From assembly GCA_017432225.1 (NCBI GenBank), contig JAFRJN010000004.1, positions 1-42,200 of the forward strand: DNA of 42,200 nt. The letters are read 5' to 3'. The notes under the pieces were generated by a model that did no database searches, had not been told where the DNA came from, and saw only the letters and a program-made list of their open reading frames with translations. The translations under genes and the position numbers were made by a program. Origin of the DNA: Candidatus Saccharimonadota bacterium (GTDB lineage: Bacteria > Patescibacteriota > Saccharimonadia > Saccharimonadales > Saccharimonadaceae). Within the stretch, counting starts at the first letter, position 1. Each line of letters begins with the position of its first letter. Below, piece by piece: positions 4,024-32,149 of this stretch.

Positions 4024-4871
4024 TTTGGCTCCTTTTGGCAGGTTGGGCAGATGTGTGTGCCGCGGCCGGCGACCCTGATCTTGATAATCTCTGCGCCGCA
4101 AACGGGGCATTTCTTCCCTTCGCGGCCAAAGACTTGAACGAATTTATCGAGATAGTTGCCGCGGGTGCCGTCGGCTTTTTTGTAATCTCGCATGGTGGAG
4201 CCGCCAGATTCGATAGACTTTTCCATGACTTCTTTGGCGTTTTTGATAATTGTTTTCGCCTGTTCTCGGGTGATTTCGCCGGATTTAGTCATGGGGTGGA
4301 TTTTGCTCATGAAAAGAGTTTCGTCGGCGTAAATGTTGCCGAGACCACAGATGATGGTCTGGTCGAGAATGGTGGCCTTGATGGGAGATTTGGAATGCTT
4401 CTTTAGCTTATTGTAAAAATCTTCTTCCGAAATGGACCAGGGTTCGGGGGCGAGTTTTTTAATAAAGGCGTCGTTCTCTACTTCTTTGGTGTCGAGGGCT
4501 TTGATGAAGCCAAATTTGCGCTGGTCGTTGAAATAGAGGATGCCGTTTTCTAGTTCTAGGATTACGCGGGTTTGCCTGTTGGGGAGGGTGTCGACGAAAT
4601 TTTCGTTGGGGTGGCCGGCGGCGAAACGCTCCCTGTTCGTGGGGTCAAAAATCAGCTGGCCGGTCATCCGGAGATGAATCATCAGAGATTTACCATTATC
4701 TAAATCGATGATGAGAGCCTTGCCGTAGCGGCGGAGATTTGTCACAGTGGCCGTCTGGGACTCACCGACGAAAGATTTTTCGCACAAAATCGTGGTCTTT
4801 GAAATTTTTTGATGAACAATCAATTTAGACAACCCACGTCTAATGGTCTCGACCTCTGGCAGTTCAGGCAT
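4020..4871 (-). CDS. mutM: Formamidopyrimidine-DNA glycosylase
   Basis: 283 residues, the standard length. It removes oxidised purines such as 8-oxoguanine and cuts the strand by beta,delta-elimination. The start MPELPEVET carries the catalytic Pro2 and Glu3. The helix-two-turn-helix segment includes CGLGNIYADE, and the C-terminal zinc finger has CPVC and CPTC pairs (CPVCGAEIIK, GRGTHICPTC). The start follows AAGGAGGG, and Pro2 must be N-terminal, so the longer frame is rejected. It overlaps the PLC-like gene by 8 nt and holA by 4 nt, indicating translational coupling. Confidence 0.95.
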   Translation of the reverse strand: MPELPEVETIRRGLSKLIVHQKISKTTILCEKSFVGESQTATVTNLRRYGKALIIDLDNGKSLMIHLRMTGQLIFDPTNRERFAAGHPNENFVDTLPNRQTRVILELENGILYFNDQRKFGFIKALDTKEVENDAFIKKLAPEPWSISEEDFYNKLKKHSKSPIKATILDQTIICGLGNIYADETLFMSKIHPMTKSGEITREQAKTIIKNAKEVMEKSIESGGSTMRDYKKADGTRGNYLDKFVQVFGREGKKCPVCGAEIIKIRVAGRGTHICPTCQKEPK

Positions 4872-5535
4872 TTTTGCCCTCCTTTCTAGATTTAAGACCG
4901 GGAGCTTCTGATTCGAAATACTGATAGTAAAATTCGTCAATGGCGTCCTGGAGCAGCTGATTGAGAGATTCATTGGTGTAAAAAATGTAGGAATCGCCGC
5001 GGATAAAATCGTTTAGGTGATTGTCTTTTAAAATATTATCAACTTCTAGTAAATCTTCTGGGGTAATATTGACGTTTTTGACCTGATTGGAGAGAGCGGC
5101 CATCTCTTCTGCCATCTCTGGAGTGAGATTCAGCGGATGGTGGAAATTGGTATCAAAAAGCCAAAAATCGTGGTGCTTGAGATCGCGCTTCTCCTCATCA
5201 TTTAGGTGCTCGGTAATAGGAGAATGCTTGGCGCCATGGTAAAAATCATAGTTGAAAAAACCGTCCACGAAGAGGTGAAAAAGGTAGCCCAGGAAAATTG
5301 GGTCTTTTTCCCTGATTTTTGCGCTGTAATCGGCGTAAAAATTGAGCGAGGATTTTTCATCGAAAGCATAGTGAGTGTCCTGATGAGGATATCTAGACTT
5401 GGGAGAGTTGATGTAGCCGTTGTTGATATCTGGCAATAAGCAACCAACCAAAAACTCCCGCTTCTTCTCGGGGGTGAAGTGGAGTTTCCTTGCGAGCCTT
5501 TCGCCGGCCTCTAGATGTATATTCCAACTTGGCAT
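4864..5535 (-). CDS. Zinc-dependent phospholipase C-like protein
   Basis: 223 residues. The opening MPSWNIHLEAGERLARKL and the core GYLFHLFVDGFFNYDFY match the pattern of the zinc-dependent PLC/S1-P1 nuclease-like fold (His near the N-terminus, then HxxxD in a helix). LLPDINNGY fits the conserved G.L.PDi segment. No signal peptide is seen, so it probably acts in the cytoplasm and its substrate is unknown. No Shine-Dalgarno sequence precedes the ATG; a perfect 14-bp hairpin containing TGGTATAAT is immediately upstream. A paralogue is encoded at 28302-28943. First gene of the operon with mutM and holA. Fold assignment is moderate; enzyme activity is not shown. Confidence 0.6.
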   Translation of the reverse strand: MPSWNIHLEAGERLARKLHFTPEKKREFLVGCLLPDINNGYINSPKSRYPHQDTHYAFDEKSSLNFYADYSAKIREKDPIFLGYLFHLFVDGFFNYDFYHGAKHSPITEHLNDEEKRDLKHHDFWLFDTNFHHPLNLTPEMAEEMAALSNQVKNVNITPEDLLEVDNILKDNHLNDFIRGDSYIFYTNESLNQLLQDAIDEFYYQYFESEAPGLKSRKEGKNA

Positions 5536-5582: not shown

Positions 5583-6020
5583 TTAGCGAGCGTAAGCGAC
5601 ATTCTGCGCCATAGCCTGGGTCTCGAGAGCGACGAGGCGCTCGGCATCGTCCACCGCGGAATTAACAGAGTGCTTGACGCGGGCGCTTTCTTCGGCCTTT
5701 TTGGCGTCGTTCCAGCGGTCAAGAGTGCCGACGAGGTAGCCAGTGATGCGGCGGAGGCGTTCAAATTTGCCTTCGTCAAAGTACTCGGCGTGAGCGTCGA
5801 AATACTCTTTGGCGGTCTTTTCGCCGGCCTTTTCTTCGATCAACTTGACACCGACTTCTACGAGACAGGAAACGTGCATGGTTTCATACTGGTCGAAATC
5901 TTTCAGGGCTTCTTTTACTTCTTTGTCGCTAATTTTGGCGTATTTGTTTAGCGAATCGACGAAGCGATTGAGGCTGAAATTTTCGACTTGCTCTGGGCTT
6001 TTGTAAACGATTTTTTTCAT
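5583..6020 (-). CDS. Hypothetical helical protein, 145 residues
   Basis: I do not recognise a family. The protein is mostly charged and helical (MKKIVYKSPEQVENFSLNRF onward), with no signal peptide, membrane segment or cysteine motif; the second half (EGKFERLRRITGYLVGTLDR, then AKKAEESARVKHS) could form a coiled coil. The consensus promoter upstream suggests high expression. AAAGG precedes the ATG. It stands alone and ends before the hairpin at 5540-5573. Confidence 0.7.
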   Translation of the reverse strand: MKKIVYKSPEQVENFSLNRFVDSLNKYAKISDKEVKEALKDFDQYETMHVSCLVEVGVKLIEEKAGEKTAKEYFDAHAEYFDEGKFERLRRITGYLVGTLDRWNDAKKAEESARVKHSVNSAVDDAERLVALETQAMAQNVAYAR

Positions 6021-9125: not shown

Positions 9126-9938
9126 TTAAAGTTGGTTTAAATTGATTTCGGGGAAATTGGTGCGGATGTGCTCGGCGTAGCCGGCGTCGATATGCTTCCA
9201 GGCGGTCTTCATGCGGTCTACCTCCGAAGTGTCAACAAACTGGGCGAGAAATTCTTTTTCAAACTCTTTGGGAACGGGGCGTGACAGCATACGGGCGGTA
9301 TCCATTTGGGGATTGCCAAGCCCAGCAAAGCAAAAATCAATTACACCGACAACTTTATCATTTTCATCTAGAAGGATGTTGCCAAGATTGAGATCGCCGT
9401 GGACAAGCTTGTTTTCTTCGGTTTTTTTGATGTACTCGTGATCTTTATCGATGTGATTTTTGTAGTGTTCATGATCTAGCTCATAGAGAAACTCGGAAAG
9501 TGGCATCTGGACTTCTTTGGGTGCGCCGCGGAGGTCGATACCGGAGAACTCTTTGATAAATTTGGCGGCATCGTAAGCTACGCCGGTAAGCGCGGTATGA
9601 CTCAAGTGATAAATGCGGTCGCCCAGGGTATAGCCTTCGATTTTTTGGTGAACAGAAAAAGGACGCTTCTTTTCGTCATAATGGAGCTCCATCTGCGGAG
9701 TATAAAAACTGGTCTTGCCCTCCACGAAATTACAGACAGCGGCGTCTTTGACGATCATCTTGGACCAAAAAGGATTGCGCGGAAAGCGGAAGAAATAACT
9801 TTTTTCATTGGTAGTGACCTCAATAACGATATTAGTCCAGCCGGTCAGAATATGTTTAGTCTTTAAAACTTGACGACCCTTCATGGTGTCTTTGATAATT
9901 GTGTCTAACGGGTCATTTGTCGTAAAAAAATTACGCAT
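9126..9938 (-). CDS. APH-family phosphotransferase (aminoglycoside/choline kinase-like)
   Basis: 270 residues with the eukaryotic-like kinase fold of the APH family. The catalytic loop HGDLNLGNILLD is at 180-191 and the metal-binding aspartate at 201 (VIDFCFAG). N-terminal strands end in YFFRFPR, near the usual ATP-binding lysine region, though the lysine is not obvious. The substrate could be a small alcohol, amine or sugar; drug resistance should not be assumed. The start is placed at 9938, not 9956, because the six extra codons are the -10 element itself. Next gene downstream is the TetR-like regulator. Confidence 0.7.
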   Translation of the reverse strand: MRNFFTTNDPLDTIIKDTMKGRQVLKTKHILTGWTNIVIEVTTNEKSYFFRFPRNPFWSKMIVKDAAVCNFVEGKTSFYTPQMELHYDEKKRPFSVHQKIEGYTLGDRIYHLSHTALTGVAYDAAKFIKEFSGIDLRGAPKEVQMPLSEFLYELDHEHYKNHIDKDHEYIKKTEENKLVHGDLNLGNILLDENDKVVGVIDFCFAGLGNPQMDTARMLSRPVPKEFEKEFLAQFVDTSEVDRMKTAWKHIDAGYAEHIRTNFPEINLNQL

Positions 9939-9944
9939 GTATAT

Positions 9945-9964
9945 ATTATAGCACATGATATAAT
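9945..9964. promoter_or_regulatory. Overlapping divergent leaderless promoters
   Basis: Minus strand: TGTGCTATAAT (hexamer 9945-9950), 6 nt before the APH-type kinase ATG. Plus strand: TATAAT (9959-9964), 7 nt before the ATG at 9972. The two -10 elements are 8 nt apart, so polymerases on the two genes should exclude each other. Confidence 0.65.
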
Positions 9965-9971
9965 AGATGGT

Positions 9972-10538
9972 ATGGATAATGTAAAAATACTAGCAATTGT
10001 GGGGATGAGTGGGAGCGGAAAGTCGGTAGTGGTGGATTATTTGACTGAAAAAGGATATCCGAAAGTATACTTCGGTGGGATGATTTATAAAGAAATGGAG
10101 AAACGAGGGATTGCCCGCACCGAGGATGGCGAAAGTGAAAAAAAGTTCCGCGAGGAAATCCGAGAGACCGAAGGTAAAGATTGGGTGGTGAGACAAGTGA
10201 TCAATGAGACGCGCGACTTGATTTCGGCGGGACAAAAGAGGATCGTGCTAGATGGGGTGTATTCTTGGACGGAATATTGTTTGCTCAAACATGAGTTTCC
10301 GAAGGCTTTGACCTTTATTGCGGTGGTAGTAGATAAACAACTGCGATATGATCGGGTGGCAGTGAGGCCGGGGCGCTCCTTTGATGCGGCGGCAATTCGC
10401 GAGAGAGACCGCAGCGAGATTGAGAACTTGGAAAAAGGTGGGCCGATTGCGGCGGCAGACTATTACATTCTCAATAATGGCTCGATAGAAGATTGCACTA
10501 ATAGGTTAGATCAAATTTTGAAAGAAATTGAATTTTAG
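9972..10538 (+). CDS. P-loop small-molecule kinase (nucleotide or dephospho-CoA kinase-like)
   Basis: 188 residues. Walker A GMSGSGKS at 11-18. The layout (P-loop, YFGGMIYKEME substrate helix, RIVLDGVYSWTEY strand, RVAVRPGRSFDAAAIRERDR lid-like segment) follows the AAA_18/dephospho-CoA kinase and dNMP kinase group. The substrate cannot be fixed. It faces the zeta-like kinase and overlaps its 3' end by 41 bp, so the two transcripts are complementary at their ends. No Shine-Dalgarno sequence precedes the start. Confidence 0.6.
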   Translation: MDNVKILAIVGMSGSGKSVVVDYLTEKGYPKVYFGGMIYKEMEKRGIARTEDGESEKKFREEIRETEGKDWVVRQVINETRDLISAGQKRIVLDGVYSWTEYCLLKHEFPKALTFIAVVVDKQLRYDRVAVRPGRSFDAAAIRERDRSEIENLEKGGPIAAADYYILNNGSIEDCTNRLDQILKEIEF

Positions 10539-28294: not shown

Positions 28295-28314
28295 GGCCAC
28301 CCTAGAGGGTGGCC
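28295..28314 (-). terminator. Terminator containing the stop codon of the second PLC-like gene
   Basis: 8-bp stem GGCCACCC/GGGTGGCC (28295-28302 with 28307-28314, loop of 4). The stop codon 28302-28304 lies in the stem and loop. The T-run after it is short (TTT). Confidence 0.6.
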
Positions 28315-28943
28315 AAAGTAAGTATGCGAGAACATAGGTTAGCACCAGTTTCAATTACCCACTTTAGTTCATTGAGACTAATGATTTCGGGGGCATCTGT
28401 GATTGGATTAGCAAGATATTTTTCGAGTTCTTTTCGCCAATTACGGTCGCTCCGCTCGTCAAAACGAGAAAAACCAGTAAGCGGAGGTTGCTCTTTGAGA
28501 TTAAATATATAATCTGGTATATAACCGTCGGTGATTAGACTGAGATTAAACTTTGAATAGCAACCGTAGAGCCCTTGACTAGAAAGAAAAACCTCGACTG
28601 GCCATACTTCAGAACAACCATACGTTCGCATGACTTTAGCGTCATCTTTGGACAACTGATAGTTTTTGCTGAGCCAACTATCGATGAAGAAATTATCTAA
28701 TAGCAAATGACAATAGATGCCTGCCAAAACTGGGTCATTTTTGTAAAGAAGATCTTGTGAAGCCATCACTAAATCTGGGACTTTCCAATTACTAGAAAAA
28801 TGTTTAATGCGATAGTGAGATTTGGATTTATCTTGAGCAAGGTCTGGGATGAGATTACCGAGCATGAACGGCTCGTATTCTAATTGCGACATACTCTTAC
28901 AAACAAGATTCCCGCAAGCTAAATGATACAATAATCCTGGCAT
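28302..28943 (-). CDS. Zinc-dependent phospholipase C-like protein, second copy
   Basis: 213 residues. Opening MPGLLYHLACGNLVCKSM, FMLGNLIPDLAQDKSKSHY, and VLAGIYCHLLLDNFFIDSWL give the same layout as the protein at 4864-5535 (N-terminal His, G-x-x-xPD, helix with HxxxD), here with a fuller His set. No signal peptide. AAGGAGGGG precedes the start. Single gene upstream of valS in transcription order. Enzyme activity unknown. Confidence 0.6.
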   Translation of the reverse strand: MPGLLYHLACGNLVCKSMSQLEYEPFMLGNLIPDLAQDKSKSHYRIKHFSSNWKVPDLVMASQDLLYKNDPVLAGIYCHLLLDNFFIDSWLSKNYQLSKDDAKVMRTYGCSEVWPVEVFLSSQGLYGCYSKFNLSLITDGYIPDYIFNLKEQPPLTGFSRFDERSDRNWRKELEKYLANPITDAPEIISLNELKWVIETGANLCSRILTLATL

Positions 28944-29006: not shown

Positions 29007-29033
29007 AAAAGCTCCGCTTTTAGCGGAGCTTTT
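29007..29033 (-). terminator. Terminator of the pnuC/fusion operon
   Basis: GCTCCGC/GCGGAGC stem (29011-29017 with 29023-29029) extended by A-T pairs, with T-run on the minus strand. The stop codon 29020-29022 lies in the loop. Confidence 0.85.
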
Positions 29034-30522
29034 GAGCCAAATCTACAGCAGCCATACGCCTTGCGCTTATTTGATTTTTCCCTTCTGGAGAAAGTTCCGC
29101 TAGAGTGCGACCGTCTGGCAATTCGAAAACCGAGTCGAAGCCAAAACCGTTTTTGCCACGTGGCGACGAAGCTATCTTGCCGATGATCACCCCGTGCCCA
29201 GACACTGTCTTAGAACCATCATAATAGACTAGTTCACAAATAGCGCGAGCGGTTTTGCCCTTTGCGCGGCGGATTAGTTCGGCATTTCGCTCTTCATCAG
29301 TAGCATTTTCTCCTAAAAAACGATGGGTGAGCACTCCTGGCCAGCCATCTAGATCGCCTATAGCGATACCTGAATCATCTGCAATAACTGGGCAACCGCA
29401 CGAAAAAAGTTGATAGATCTCTTTCGCTTTCTTTTTGGCATTATCAAGGAAAGTTTCGCCGTCCTCGACAACCTCATGGCTGATACGGGCGTCTCTCAAG
29501 CCAATTATCGTGTACTCAGGGAAAATCTTGCGAAGCTCTAGTAATTTGCCCCGATTGTTGGTAGCAACTACTACCTTGCGCAAGAAATTACTGTACTGGT
29601 CTAGAATCAGGTCTGCAATGGCGTCGGGATCGAGATCATCTACCTTGAAAAGCTTGATTCTGCCCCGACTTAGCTGACCTTTAGTAGCGCAGACGACGGT
29701 CTCGAGATAGAGCTCGTCGTACATCGAGGCTTTTTGATCGTAACTATCGATAGCGCCGCCACGGCTTCGAATGCGTCTTTCTAGCTCGTCTTTGTCTGAC
29801 AAGGTCAAAACTGCAATGGCATCGCTAGGATGAGCGCATAAATATTCGTTCCAAATGTGAGCACGCACGACTGGTAATTTCTCGGGCGTGATACAGGCGG
29901 ATATAGTGGTCTTTTCTCGGTCTAGACAATTGACGCCCAGGCTTCGAAGTTTACGGACAATGGTAGTTTTGCCGACGCCATCTGTGCCCTCGATGATAAT
30001 GCGTCTTGATGGCGTATTCCTATATTGTTCTATGAAATCCAAGATTTCATTTTCATTTTCCACCTGAACAATCTGGATGTTCGGACTAGCGCGCTGAGCC
30101 GTCAGAATAGGGAACCAATACTCCGATGTCACCTCATCTAGCTGGGTAATTTCTGGATTATAGAAAATAATAATTTCCTTTTCTGGAAATTGAGCGGCAT
30201 AAATGATTTCCGTGATGGTAGCAATCGAAGAATACTTTAGTAAACTCGCCATAACGACATCAGCCTCTTCGATTTCATCAAGCTCGGCTTTAACAATGTT
30301 TTCGCATGTGGATAACCCTGGCTCTTCTTTTTCGTAGTAAAAACCGCCGATATAGAATAGCTCTGGGTTGATCGAAAGCGGTGTACGCTCTCCATAGACA
30401 AACTTCTCTACATCGCCGAGCATTTTTGCACGAATATCATCTTTTAGCTTTTCCGTGACATTTTGTTCAGTGATTTCTGAATGCCAAATATTGTACGCTG
30501 ATGAGTAAAATAGTTTTTTCAT
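29020..30522 (-). CDS. Three-domain nucleotide enzyme: deoxyribosyltransferase-like, thymidylate kinase-like, RdgB/HAM1
   Basis: 500 residues. Residues 1-165 fit the nucleoside 2-deoxyribosyltransferase fold: YSSAYN at the start, IEEADVVMASL, then ITEIIYAAQFPEKEIIIF with E105 in the usual catalytic position. Residues 172-310 are a thymidylate kinase-like P-loop domain with EGTDGVGKTT (178-187) and a DRE segment (201-203). Residues 316-500 are an RdgB/HAM1 pyrophosphatase: TNNRGK (321-326), ADDSG (381-385), GFGFDSVF (459-466) and SARRMA (486-491). It would swap bases on imported deoxynucleosides, phosphorylate them, and destroy non-canonical triphosphates. The start overlaps the pnuC stop as ATGA. 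I know of no standard protein with this order. Confidence 0.85.
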   Translation of the reverse strand: MKKLFYSSAYNIWHSEITEQNVTEKLKDDIRAKMLGDVEKFVYGERTPLSINPELFYIGGFYYEKEEPGLSTCENIVKAELDEIEEADVVMASLLKYSSIATITEIIYAAQFPEKEIIIFYNPEITQLDEVTSEYWFPILTAQRASPNIQIVQVENENEILDFIEQYRNTPSRRIIIEGTDGVGKTTIVRKLRSLGVNCLDREKTTISACITPEKLPVVRAHIWNEYLCAHPSDAIAVLTLSDKDELERRIRSRGGAIDSYDQKASMYDELYLETVVCATKGQLSRGRIKLFKVDDLDPDAIADLILDQYSNFLRKVVVATNNRGKLLELRKIFPEYTIIGLRDARISHEVVEDGETFLDNAKKKAKEIYQLFSCGCPVIADDSGIAIGDLDGWPGVLTHRFLGENATDEERNAELIRRAKGKTARAICELVYYDGSKTVSGHGVIIGKIASSPRGKNGFGFDSVFELPDGRTLAELSPEGKNQISARRMAAVDLAQKLR

Positions 30523-31076
30523 ACTACCGATTCCTCCTTTTGCATAATTTTACGCCAGTTGATAAACGAGTAAACAGCTAGGCCAGTCCAAATAATATTA
30601 AGAATGGCCAGGACGATTGCTTGGTTTGGAAGCATAAAATATTCCACCACATACAAAATGTCATTTACAAACCAAATTACCCAAGTATCGAGCTTCTTTG
30701 TCATCATATAATAAGTTGCGACAAAAGAGCTAACCGTGGTAAACGCGTCAATCAGCGGAAGAGGGTCGTCCGTTCTTTTCAAAATCAGAAATCCGACCAG
30801 AGTGGCGACTGCTATGACTACAATGTAACCAATGCGTTCGGAGTTACTAGCCACTGTGATTTTGGACTTTTCCTTTTGCCCCCACCGAATAAACCCGATT
30901 ACGCCGATGACGAAGTAGATTGCATCGTTTGCCATATCACCATAAAGATGGTTGATGGCGGAGAAAATGAATAATCCCGCCATTTGCAAAATGTAAAAAA
31001 TCCAATTACTCCGTTTGTTGACGGCTACTAGCACACCTTGGACTATGCCTAGTCCGGTGCAAATCCATTCTAACAT
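30519..31076 (-). CDS. pnuC: PnuC-family vitamin/nucleoside transporter
   Basis: 185 residues with about seven membrane segments. PnuC proteins carry nicotinamide riboside, thiamine or deoxynucleosides by facilitated diffusion, trapped by a kinase. Family features: NKRSNWIFYILQMAGLFIFS near the N-terminus, TTVSSFVATYYMMTKKLDTW, then WFVNDILYVVEYF and the final NIIWTGLAVYSFINW. AGGAGG lies 8 nt before the ATG at 31076. It overlaps the next gene by 4 nt; that partner, with a kinase domain, suggests a nucleoside cargo (PnuT/PnuN-like). Confidence 0.85.
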   Translation of the reverse strand: MLEWICTGLGIVQGVLVAVNKRSNWIFYILQMAGLFIFSAINHLYGDMANDAIYFVIGVIGFIRWGQKEKSKITVASNSERIGYIVVIAVATLVGFLILKRTDDPLPLIDAFTTVSSFVATYYMMTKKLDTWVIWFVNDILYVVEYFMLPNQAIVLAILNIIWTGLAVYSFINWRKIMQKEESVV

Positions 31077-31135
31077 ACACACCACCTCCTAATAATACTG
31101 ACTACTACTGTAGATTTTAATGTGCAACAGATATA

Positions 31136-31164
31136 ATTATATCACTTTTCTACAAGATGGTAAA
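31136..31164 (-). promoter_or_regulatory. Promoter of pnuC and the fusion gene
   Basis: -10 TATAAT (31136-31141) preceded by GTGA, 17-nt spacer, -35 TTTACC (31159-31164). It is back to back with the toxin-antitoxin promoter; the two -35 hexamers are 12 nt apart. Confidence 0.65.
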
Positions 31165-31176
31165 CGGAAAGTGGGG

Positions 31177-31205
31177 TTGACTTCTGTATGACAGTGTCAT
31201 ACAAT
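31177..31205 (+). promoter_or_regulatory. Promoter and operator of the Fic toxin-antitoxin pair
   Basis: -35 TTGACT (31177-31182), 17-nt spacer, -10 TACAAT (31200-31205), then 6 nt and the antitoxin ATG. A perfect palindrome TGTATGACA-G-TGTCATACA (31185-31203) fills the spacer and enters the -10. It is the likely binding site of the antitoxin dimer for self-repression. Confidence 0.75.
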
Positions 31206-31211
31206 GGTAAT

Positions 31212-31577
31212 ATGAGTACAACTACGACAACGAATAGGACAAATAATTTAATACAGGTGCGGGTGCCGGCGGATTTGAAGGAGCGGACGGCGAAGCTTTT
31301 TGAGAGTTTGGGGACTTCTACTTCCGATGTGATTCGAATGATGCTAGTGAGGGCAGATGAAACCAAGAGTATCCCCTTTGATATGCGGACTATGGCCTAT
31401 CCGATTACGGCGTCGGAGAGGATTGAGGAGATTATGGCGACTTTTGAGCTGGAGGGGATGCCGCTGACACCTAAAGATGTCCAGGAACTGATAGATGTAG
31501 AACTAGGCAAAACCACTACAGAAGAATTAAGAAAGAAGGCCTTGGAGGAAATTAGAAAAGAACAGGAGTCTGATTGA
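31212..31577 (+). CDS. Antitoxin: RelB/DinJ-type DNA-binding domain with a Fic-inhibiting helix
   Basis: 121 residues. Residues 13-58 have the ribbon-helix-helix pattern of RelB/DinJ (LIQVRVPADLKERTAKLFES, TSTSDVIRMML). The C-terminal half contains TFELEG at 77-82, which fits the (S/T)xxxE(G/N) motif by which FicA/VbhA antitoxins place a Glu in the Fic ATP pocket. This reads as a repressor and an inhibitor in one chain. The start at 31212, not 31188, is chosen because the earlier ATG lies within the operator and -10. The stop overlaps the toxin start by one base (TGATG). Confidence 0.75.
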   Translation: MSTTTTTNRTNNLIQVRVPADLKERTAKLFESLGTSTSDVIRMMLVRADETKSIPFDMRTMAYPITASERIEEIMATFELEGMPLTPKDVQELIDVELGKTTTEELRKKALEEIRKEQESD

Positions 31578-32149
31578 TGCAAGACCCTTATTGTTACCCA
31601 GATTCTAGAGTACTAAAAAATAAGTTTAATATACGAGATTTTGATAAGTTAAGTCTTGAGGAGCGTAAATTTGCAAAGTACCGAGCCAGAGAGCTATTTG
31701 AAGATCCAATTCAGGGGCGGTTTGACTTTGACCACCTACGGGCGATTCATCGGCATTTGTTTCAAGATGTCTATGATTGGGCGGGCGAGGTGCGGACGGT
31801 AGACATTGCGAAAGGGAATATGTTTTGCCGGTGTTTCGCAATAGAGCCGGAGGCAGAGCGGATTTTTGGAGAACTTAAGGCAGAGAAATATCTGCGAGGG
31901 ATGATGGTAGGAGAGGTGGCAGGGAGGCTAGCATACTATCTGTCCGAGATCAACGCGCTCCATCCATTCCGCGAGGGAAATGGGCGAGCGCAGAGAGAGT
32001 TCGTGCGGCAGCTTGCACTTCTAAATGGATATTTCTTGTCGTTTAGGGGGATTCGGCAAGATGAGATGATAGAGGCGTCGAAGGCATCCTTTCGGCTGGA
32101 TTATGAGCCGATGGAGAGGATTATTCTGGGGCATTTGAGGGGGATTTGA
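31577..32149 (+). CDS. Fic-domain AMP transferase toxin
   Basis: 190 residues. The active-site loop HPFREGNGRAQREF at 129-142 is the full AMP-transfer form, with the His base and the anion-binding glycines. DVYDWAGEVRTVDIAKGNMF fits the substrate-binding flap of class I Fic proteins (VbhT/FicT, which modify gyrase and topoisomerase IV). Usual length is about 200. The ATG overlaps the antitoxin stop, so translation is coupled. The target here is inferred from the class only. It converges with the HIT gene, 70 nt away, with only a weak hairpin between. Confidence 0.88.
   Translation: MQDPYCYPDSRVLKNKFNIRDFDKLSLEERKFAKYRARELFEDPIQGRFDFDHLRAIHRHLFQDVYDWAGEVRTVDIAKGNMFCRCFAIEPEAERIFGELKAEKYLRGMMVGEVAGRLAYYLSEINALHPFREGNGRAQREFVRQLALLNGYFLSFRGIRQDEMIEASKASFRLDYEPMERIILGHLRGI

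Follow-up and report, generated by a model that had tools for sequence, protein, structure and literature searches.

Saccharibacteria-type symbionts rely on their hosts for nucleotides, and few specific import routes are known. In the genome (620 kb, 92% complete) of one such small bacterium, a member of a group living on other bacteria, a stretch of 42,200 nucleotides (hereafter, the window) carries a gene for a PnuC-family transporter that overlaps a gene for a single chain of three enzyme-like domains. The locus thus raises the question of what the transporter would bring into the cell and what the three domains would do with it.

Organization of the locus

The following features were identified, all of them on the minus strand:

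31136..31164, minus: promoter-like site of the extended -10 type (TTTACC-17-TATAAT, TG preceding the -10 element)
30519..31076 (31085 with a GTG start), minus: PnuC-family transporter (PF04973, 2e-38; TIGR01528, 64.1 bits against a cut-off of 42.45)
29020-30522, minus: three-domain fusion, 500 aa (NDT-superfamily, P-loop kinase, RdgB/HAM1)
30025..30522, minus: fusion domain 1, residues 1-166, NDT-superfamily N-glycosidase-like (AF2 pLDDT 83; DNPH1 Z 11.7, MilB Z 11.5)
29581..30024, minus: fusion domain 2, residues 167-314, small P-loop nucleoside/NMP kinase (AF2 pLDDT 90.6; P-loop intact)
29020..29580, minus: fusion domain 3, residues 315-500 and the stop codon, RdgB/HAM1 NTP pyrophosphatase (PF01725, 3e-47)
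29007..29033, minus: intrinsic terminator, 12-bp stem with 6 G-C pairs, T tail
29008-28980, minus: promoter-like site of the PLC-like gene
28302-28943, minus: Zn-dependent phospholipase C (PLC)/P1-nuclease-like gene, homologous to PLC-like genes of other cassette loci

The two main genes overlap by ATGA (30522-30519), which includes the pnuC stop codon; the coordinates of this arrangement in the initial annotation were correct. Pfam confirms PnuC and HAM1, and relatives together with AlphaFold2 models confirm the other two domains. The likely start of pnuC is the ATG at 31076 (185 aa), because AGGAGG is located just upstream, and the alternative GTG (gene 30519-31085) lies inside that Shine-Dalgarno sequence. 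The fusion gene has an AAGGAGG of its own, situated within pnuC. The two genes are predicted to form a transcription unit reaching from the promoter-like site at 31164-31136 to the terminator at 29033-29007, the hairpin loop of which holds the stop codon of the fusion. Promoter-like sites are weak signals when taken alone (10 found against 7.0 ± 2.6 in shuffled sequences), while the position of this one is fitting. No riboswitch, including the NAD riboswitch, was found upstream of pnuC.

The PLC-like gene just downstream is related to those of loci L014, L035, L039, L143, L148, L154 and L155, and H7, D34, H43, H79 and D83 of its product, all of them residues of metal-ligand type, are invariant. 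It is found 3' of the fusion in both the window and L154, although the outer neighbours differ, and it belongs to the same gene set as a third cassette member outside the originally given coordinates. A second Zn-dependent PLC-family protein (4864-5535, minus; PF00882, 7e-7) adjoins a separate glycyl-radical protein, so the PLC family flanks nucleotide-metabolism genes twice within the window. On the other side of the cassette, and divergent from it, lies a VbhA/VbhT-like Fic toxin-antitoxin pair (31188-32149, plus) with a RelB-type antitoxin start; its Fic protein matches the candidate defence family PDC-S04 at 2e-76.

Domains of the fusion protein and the transporter

The first domain had been taken for a nucleoside 2-deoxyribosyltransferase (NDT) performing base exchange on 2'-deoxyribonucleosides. 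Both the NDT and the kinase domain of the window fall under the Pfam cut-offs, and a PDB sequence search with the NDT domain gave 4mcj (E-value, 0.2) as the sole match; relatives, however, confirm the NDT family (L035 against PF15891, 3e-4; L102 against PF05014, 2e-4). The AlphaFold2 model built from 11 sequences (pLDDT 83, pTM 0.83) best matches human DNPH1 (Z 11.7, 3.5 Å over 135 residues), followed by MilB (Z 11.5) and BcmB, the three spanning Z 11.4-11.7. The NDTs 7o62, 8pqt and 1f8x score 11.0, 10.2 and 8.8, respectively; matches within one Z unit count as tied, and the classic NDTs are just 1-3 Z below. An Era-type GTPase identity, which came top in Foldseek, was rejected, as it is absent from the best VIA-align matches. 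Active sites of the NDT superfamily need a second subunit for their completion.

Residues were compared in an alignment of 22 loci and the Lactobacillus leichmannii NDT as reference, L150 being left out; at 12-18% identity, arguments drawn from such alignments are fragile. Glu105 (the nucleophile position, NDT E98), Glu80 (NDT D72) and Trp136 are invariant, both glutamates in 22/22 loci, and the NDT part of L150, read as L106, also retains E80 and E105. The position of NDT Asp92, which lies six residues before the Glu and holds the 5'-OH, is Ser in the window and Ala, Ser, Cys or Thr elsewhere, with Asp seen in the reference NDT alone. Characterised members of the superfamily that use NMPs also have neither Asp nor Asn at this 5' site (PMC12884076; also PMC10603095). 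Ser99 of the window occupies the position of the phosphate-binding Ser of DNPH1 (S98) and MilB (S97), where most relatives have Ala. The acid Asp of DNPH1 (D80) is replaced by Glu80 in 22/22 loci; the phage enzyme DmtZ, which carries a lid tryptophan, has Asn there, so the site tolerates change (PMC12884076). At the site that is Tyr in deoxyribose-selecting enzymes, Phe5 is found in the window and in 13 further loci, and Tyr in the eight loci of a second clade, marked by a GPFY motif. MilB has Phe at this position (F17; Y24 in DNPH1), and its F17Y exchange turns a ribose preference into a deoxyribose one (PMC10603095). Thus, judging by these residues, sugar preference may differ between the Phe clade and the GPFY clade. 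Overall, the balance tips slightly towards domain 1 working on NMPs.

The second domain keeps the P-loop EGTDGVGKTT and the conserved DR. Its model (pLDDT 90.6) matches deoxyadenosine kinase (2jaq, Z 12.0), yeast TMPK (3tmk, 11.8) and 2axp/YorR (11.5), which suggests a fold of the nucleoside/NMP kinase superfamily tied between both kinds. The initial annotation of a thymidylate kinase-like domain therefore stands for the P-loop kinase fold and is not supported for dTMP kinase identity: the domain scores 14.6 bits against PF02223 (cut-off, 27) and, at about 145 aa, is shorter than the nucleoside kinase and TMPK families, by ~50 aa in the case of dTMP kinase. A canonical thymidylate kinase is encoded elsewhere in the genome (G000:C5:10844-11422), so the domain does not replace it.

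As for the third domain, its assignment to RdgB/HAM1 proved sound. Residues 317-497 match PF01725 with 161.2 bits (cut-off, 22.5) and PDB 4bnq at 1.7e-30, and the motifs TNNRGK (TNNxGK), ED, DDSG and GKNGFGFD are kept; the base-binding SHR reads SAR, with the His lost. SAR was considered as a mark of special specificity and rejected, because it is common across a clade of gut Firmicutes enzymes. With this HAM1 as query, no second one was seen in the genome.

Scavenging of deoxynucleosides by base exchange would combine a PnuN-type PnuC, a true NDT, a kinase yielding dNMPs and a HAM1 domain that removes dITP. It would fit the membership of domain 1 in the NDT superfamily, the top (though tied) match of the kinase to deoxyadenosine kinase, the earlier proposal of a Pnu-type deoxynucleoside transporter, PnuN, as it is cited in PMC7749635, and the fact that the only ribonucleotide reductase of the genome is of class III. 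Yet the best fold matches of domain 1 use NMPs, the Asp at the 5'-OH position is missing, and the clade of the window has Phe for the ribose-excluding Tyr; moreover, relatives of the same genus that have no cassette likewise possess no class I/II reductase, so the presence of the cassette is not linked to the absence of a reductase. Base exchange on deoxyribonucleosides is therefore considered unlikely. That the cassette makes up for the lack of a ribonucleotide reductase was rejected as well: PF02867 was found in none of eight carriers, but class III NrdD (PF13597) in 8/8.

The class III reductase of this genome is itself split. The main NrdD (G000:C5:78216-79991) has no glycyl-radical end, which is found alone in a 145-aa protein (window 5583-6020, minus; PF13597 positions 532-562). 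The genome of L013 has the same split, and in many gut Firmicutes a frame of 54-76 aa with the glycyl-radical piece adjoins nrdD.

The transporter exceeds the cut-off of the TIGR01528 PnuC equivalog, and PnuC is uncommon within the genus of the window. Every cassette PnuC aligned has WxxWxxxD in place of WxxWxxxN, the Asn form being the motif of the known nicotinamide riboside (NR) transporters, PnuC of E. coli and of N. mucosa.

Homologous cassettes in other bacteria and phages

The same three-domain fusion was found in two further genomes, L013 (cattle duodenum, recorded as Candidatus Saccharibacteria) and L154 (genus of the window), with 55-57% identity across the entire chain, which is more than chance. 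The domain order, unfamiliar to the initial annotation, is indeed unusual: the homologue search located it in three genomes, all of one bacterial group.

Outside these genomes, a conserved cassette of PnuC and an NDT-like protein, in most cases joined by the kinase, occurs in gut Firmicutes with reduced genomes and in large rumen phages. Of 23 loci compared, 21 carry PnuC, 16 the kinase, 10 HAM1, 7 CYTH, 9 an NrtR-type regulator, 9 the PLC-like gene and 4 PurA; these counts are not independent, since some loci are closely related, and a number of contigs stop close to the cassette. The loci differ in gene order, in which parts are fused and in their accessory genes (PurA, NrtR-type regulator, PLC-like, radical SAM). 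In gut Firmicutes, L035 and L148 have PnuC-NDT-PurA-kinase-PLC-NrtR-HAM1 as separate genes; L039 has PnuC-NDT-kinase-PLC-NrtR-HAM1, and in L014 PLC and kinase are fused. Further arrangements are PnuC-NDT-radical SAM-(CYTH-kinase) in L144 and L149, PurA-PurB-PnuC-NDT-radical SAM-HD-PLC-NrtR in L143, and, in L155 from the genus of the window, PnuC, NDT, a CYTH-kinase fusion, PLC-like and NrtR-type regulator, while L146 contains an NDT-kinase and L150 a PnuC-NDT fusion. No kinase is found nearby in L141, L142, L143 and L150. That the parts are fused in different sets (PnuC-NDT, NDT-kinase, CYTH-kinase, PLC-kinase, NDT-kinase-HAM1) suggests that they serve a common process. The GPFY clade is accompanied by a 277-aa radical SAM protein in L142, L143, L144 and L149.

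Large phage contigs from IMG/VR (up to 415 kb) carry NDT-kinase-CYTH-PnuC, PnuC-NDT-kinase-CYTH or NDT-PnuC-kinase, and in L099 the terminase large subunit adjoins the cassette. A search of phage and plasmid record collections with the L035 NDT-like protein gave no match, the phage copies coming from IMG/VR contigs only. The NDT-like model is also matched by a 602-aa protein of Tupanvirus soda lake (BFVD A0A6N1NX88) that is annotated as adenylate kinase, a hint of a further NDT-kinase fusion.

HAM1 and CYTH (the latter assigned from its ERKF motif and a low-scoring profile match with 2fbl/3typ) occur together in 0/23 loci. Among kinase loci their exclusion is 7 versus 7 (Fisher p 0.003, kinship ignored), consistent with the two being alternative triphosphate hydrolases.

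The NDT-like gene is carried by 3/393 genomes of the order of the window, all of the same genus (the third being L155), and by 8/385 genomes of the order of G062; most genomes of the genus have no cassette. In phylogenetic trees built for the NDT-like domain and for PnuC, the three fusion carriers group together (support 0.997 and 0.999, respectively), and L155 stands apart from them among Firmicutes. The cassette is horizontally acquired, and the separate position of L155 indicates that these bacteria acquired it at least twice.

With neighbours related to nucleotides at almost all homologous loci, the general notion of a reduced genome with a unit that imports and processes nucleosides is upheld, minus the step of base exchange on 2'-deoxyribonucleosides; the set very probably serves nucleosides or nucleotides. 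Neither homologues unrelated to nucleotides nor a general loss of catalytic residues, which are largely kept in all three domains, were encountered.

The same loci bear on three further explanations. A unit for detoxification would phosphorylate a harmful nucleoside or nucleotide analogue, such as a nucleoside antibiotic, cleave its N-glycosidic bond and remove the triphosphate. The sporadic, horizontally moved distribution would suit it, as would the relatives MilB/BlsM of nucleoside-antibiotic pathways and the role of DNPH1 as a pool sanitiser (PMC10603095); but an importer, present in 21/23 loci, is not expected of such a unit, and PurA/PurB indicate that the product is used, which makes detoxification quite improbable.

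Salvage of an NAD precursor, with PnuC importing NR, the kinase making NMN and domain 1 handling NMN or nicotinamide, agrees with the equivalog score of PnuC and the NrtR-type winged-helix regulator of the bacterial versions. In the 308-kb phage contig L118, genes for nicotinate phosphoribosyltransferase and a NADAR protein (1-855, 9467-10204) also lie a few kb from the NDT-PnuC-kinase operon. On the other hand, PF01467 (the NMN adenylyltransferase family) was found neither in the 92% complete genome nor in 21/23 of the same-genus relatives searched, so that no known member of this family would be available to turn imported NR into NAD. Together with the WxxWxxxD motif throughout the cassette PnuCs, the failure to find an NAD riboswitch and the lack of a place for HAM1, PurA and PurB, this makes NAD salvage very improbable.

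A further explanation is anti-phage defence, or phage counter-defence, via the dNTP/dITP pool; the initial annotation had named phage defence as an alternative on account of the neighbouring Fic system. The HAM1-like KomB of the Kongming system, matched at 8e-11, and the large-phage cassettes with CYTH instead of HAM1 could be read in its favour. Nevertheless, the Fic pair forms a unit of its own, transcribed divergently, and none of the related cassettes seen had Fic next to it; no PADLOC system model fits, the matches being weak P-loop ones only, no SIR2 or deaminase partner was seen adjoining any copy, and the HAM1 domain retains its catalytic motifs. Defence thus appears to be a highly improbable function.

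Candidate pathway and comparison with known systems

The leading explanation, tentative and a little short of even, is nucleoside uptake, phosphorylation, cleavage or sugar-phosphate transfer at the NMP level, and NTP clean-up. The data establish which genes and domains are present, that the set is conserved and has spread horizontally, that key residues are intact, and the class of fold; we infer each reaction, the reaction order and the substrate from gene content and residues. PnuC would import a nucleoside by facilitated diffusion, and the kinase domain would phosphorylate it to the 5'-monophosphate, trapping it in the cell. Domain 1, as a retaining N-glycosidase of the DNPH1/MilB type that uses Glu105 as its nucleophile, would then split the 5'-monophosphate into base and ribose 5-phosphate or, alternatively, shift the sugar phosphate onto another base, as phage DmtZ does, and HAM1 would convert a wrongly formed triphosphate back to the monophosphate. 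The three enzymes would converge on one metabolite, the NMP, which would explain the fusion.

The most likely substrate is a purine ribonucleoside. Inosine is the best candidate, since HAM1 enzymes prefer hypoxanthine/xanthine nucleotides and PurA occurs in the Firmicutes versions; its presence within the operon in L035 and L148, and with PurB in L143, points to IMP. As a specific assignment, inosine is still rather doubtful. Several points run counter to the leading explanation: the predicted acid residue is Glu, as opposed to Asp/Asn in characterised members; the kinase is indistinguishable from an NMP kinase, and the scheme changes if NDP is made; the Saccharibacteria versions have no PurA; four loci (L141, L142, L143 and L150) have no kinase close by; and HAM1 is a housekeeping enzyme that could have been fused by chance of gene order.

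Every part of the cassette belongs to a known superfamily; in the literature searched, coverage of which was partial, neither the set as a unit nor its phage form was found described, nor were the alternation of HAM1 and CYTH and the three-domain chain. With its clear transporter, its testable single-chain enzyme and the parallel phage copies, the cassette is a concrete candidate for nucleotide import, and would show that the same nucleotide-scavenging genes are common to epibiotic bacteria, gut Firmicutes with reduced genomes and large phages. It also lends itself to a clear-cut test of the features by which transferases and nucleoside/nucleotide N-glycosidases of the NDT superfamily differ. 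One could go further and suppose, somewhat speculatively, that cellular symbionts have a salvage pathway in common with jumbo phages: a ribonucleoside, once imported, would be phosphorylated and then, at the level of the 5'-phosphate, either split or given another base, HAM1 and CYTH would act as interchangeable triphosphate guards, and one bacterial group would have the pathway condensed into a single three-enzyme chain.

The known logic of Pnu-type transporters is nucleoside uptake followed by intracellular phosphorylation. Like PnuN/PnuC, the cassette PnuC matches PF04973 above the cut-off, and it differs from them in the Asp of the WxxWxxxN motif and in a partner other than nicotinamide riboside kinase. 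Domain 3 is a full-length RdgB/HAM1/ITPA domain with the catalytic motifs kept, set apart by SAR for SHR, a feature common to the clade of gut Firmicutes enzymes. Kongming (KomABC) likewise has a HAM1-fold component, but in the loci examined the neighbouring genes included no recognisable KomA adenosine deaminase or KomC SIR2 effector, and the HAM1 of the cassette, in contrast to that system, looks catalytically intact.

Domain 1 shares with the nucleoside 5'-monophosphate N-glycosidases DNPH1 (RCL) and MilB/BcmB the fold, the nucleophilic Glu and the lack of Asp at the 5'-OH site, and the Phe of MilB is matched in the window. It is unlike DNPH1/MilB in its low identity (about 17%), in having Glu in place of the acid Asp, in a beta-hairpin insertion that carries GGFYYE, and in its fusion to kinase and HAM1 with a linked transporter. 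DmtZ of Z-DNA phages, for instance Gordonia phage Ghobes, the protein of which is among the top viral fold matches to the domain 1 model, is also of the NDT superfamily, acts on NMPs and is sometimes fused to the triphosphate hydrolase DutZ (PMC12884076). In contrast to the DmtZ system, the cassette includes a PnuC transporter, with no PurZ/DpoZ seen, and the clade of the window has Phe in place of the deoxyribose-selecting Tyr of DmtZ, an enzyme that produces dZMP.
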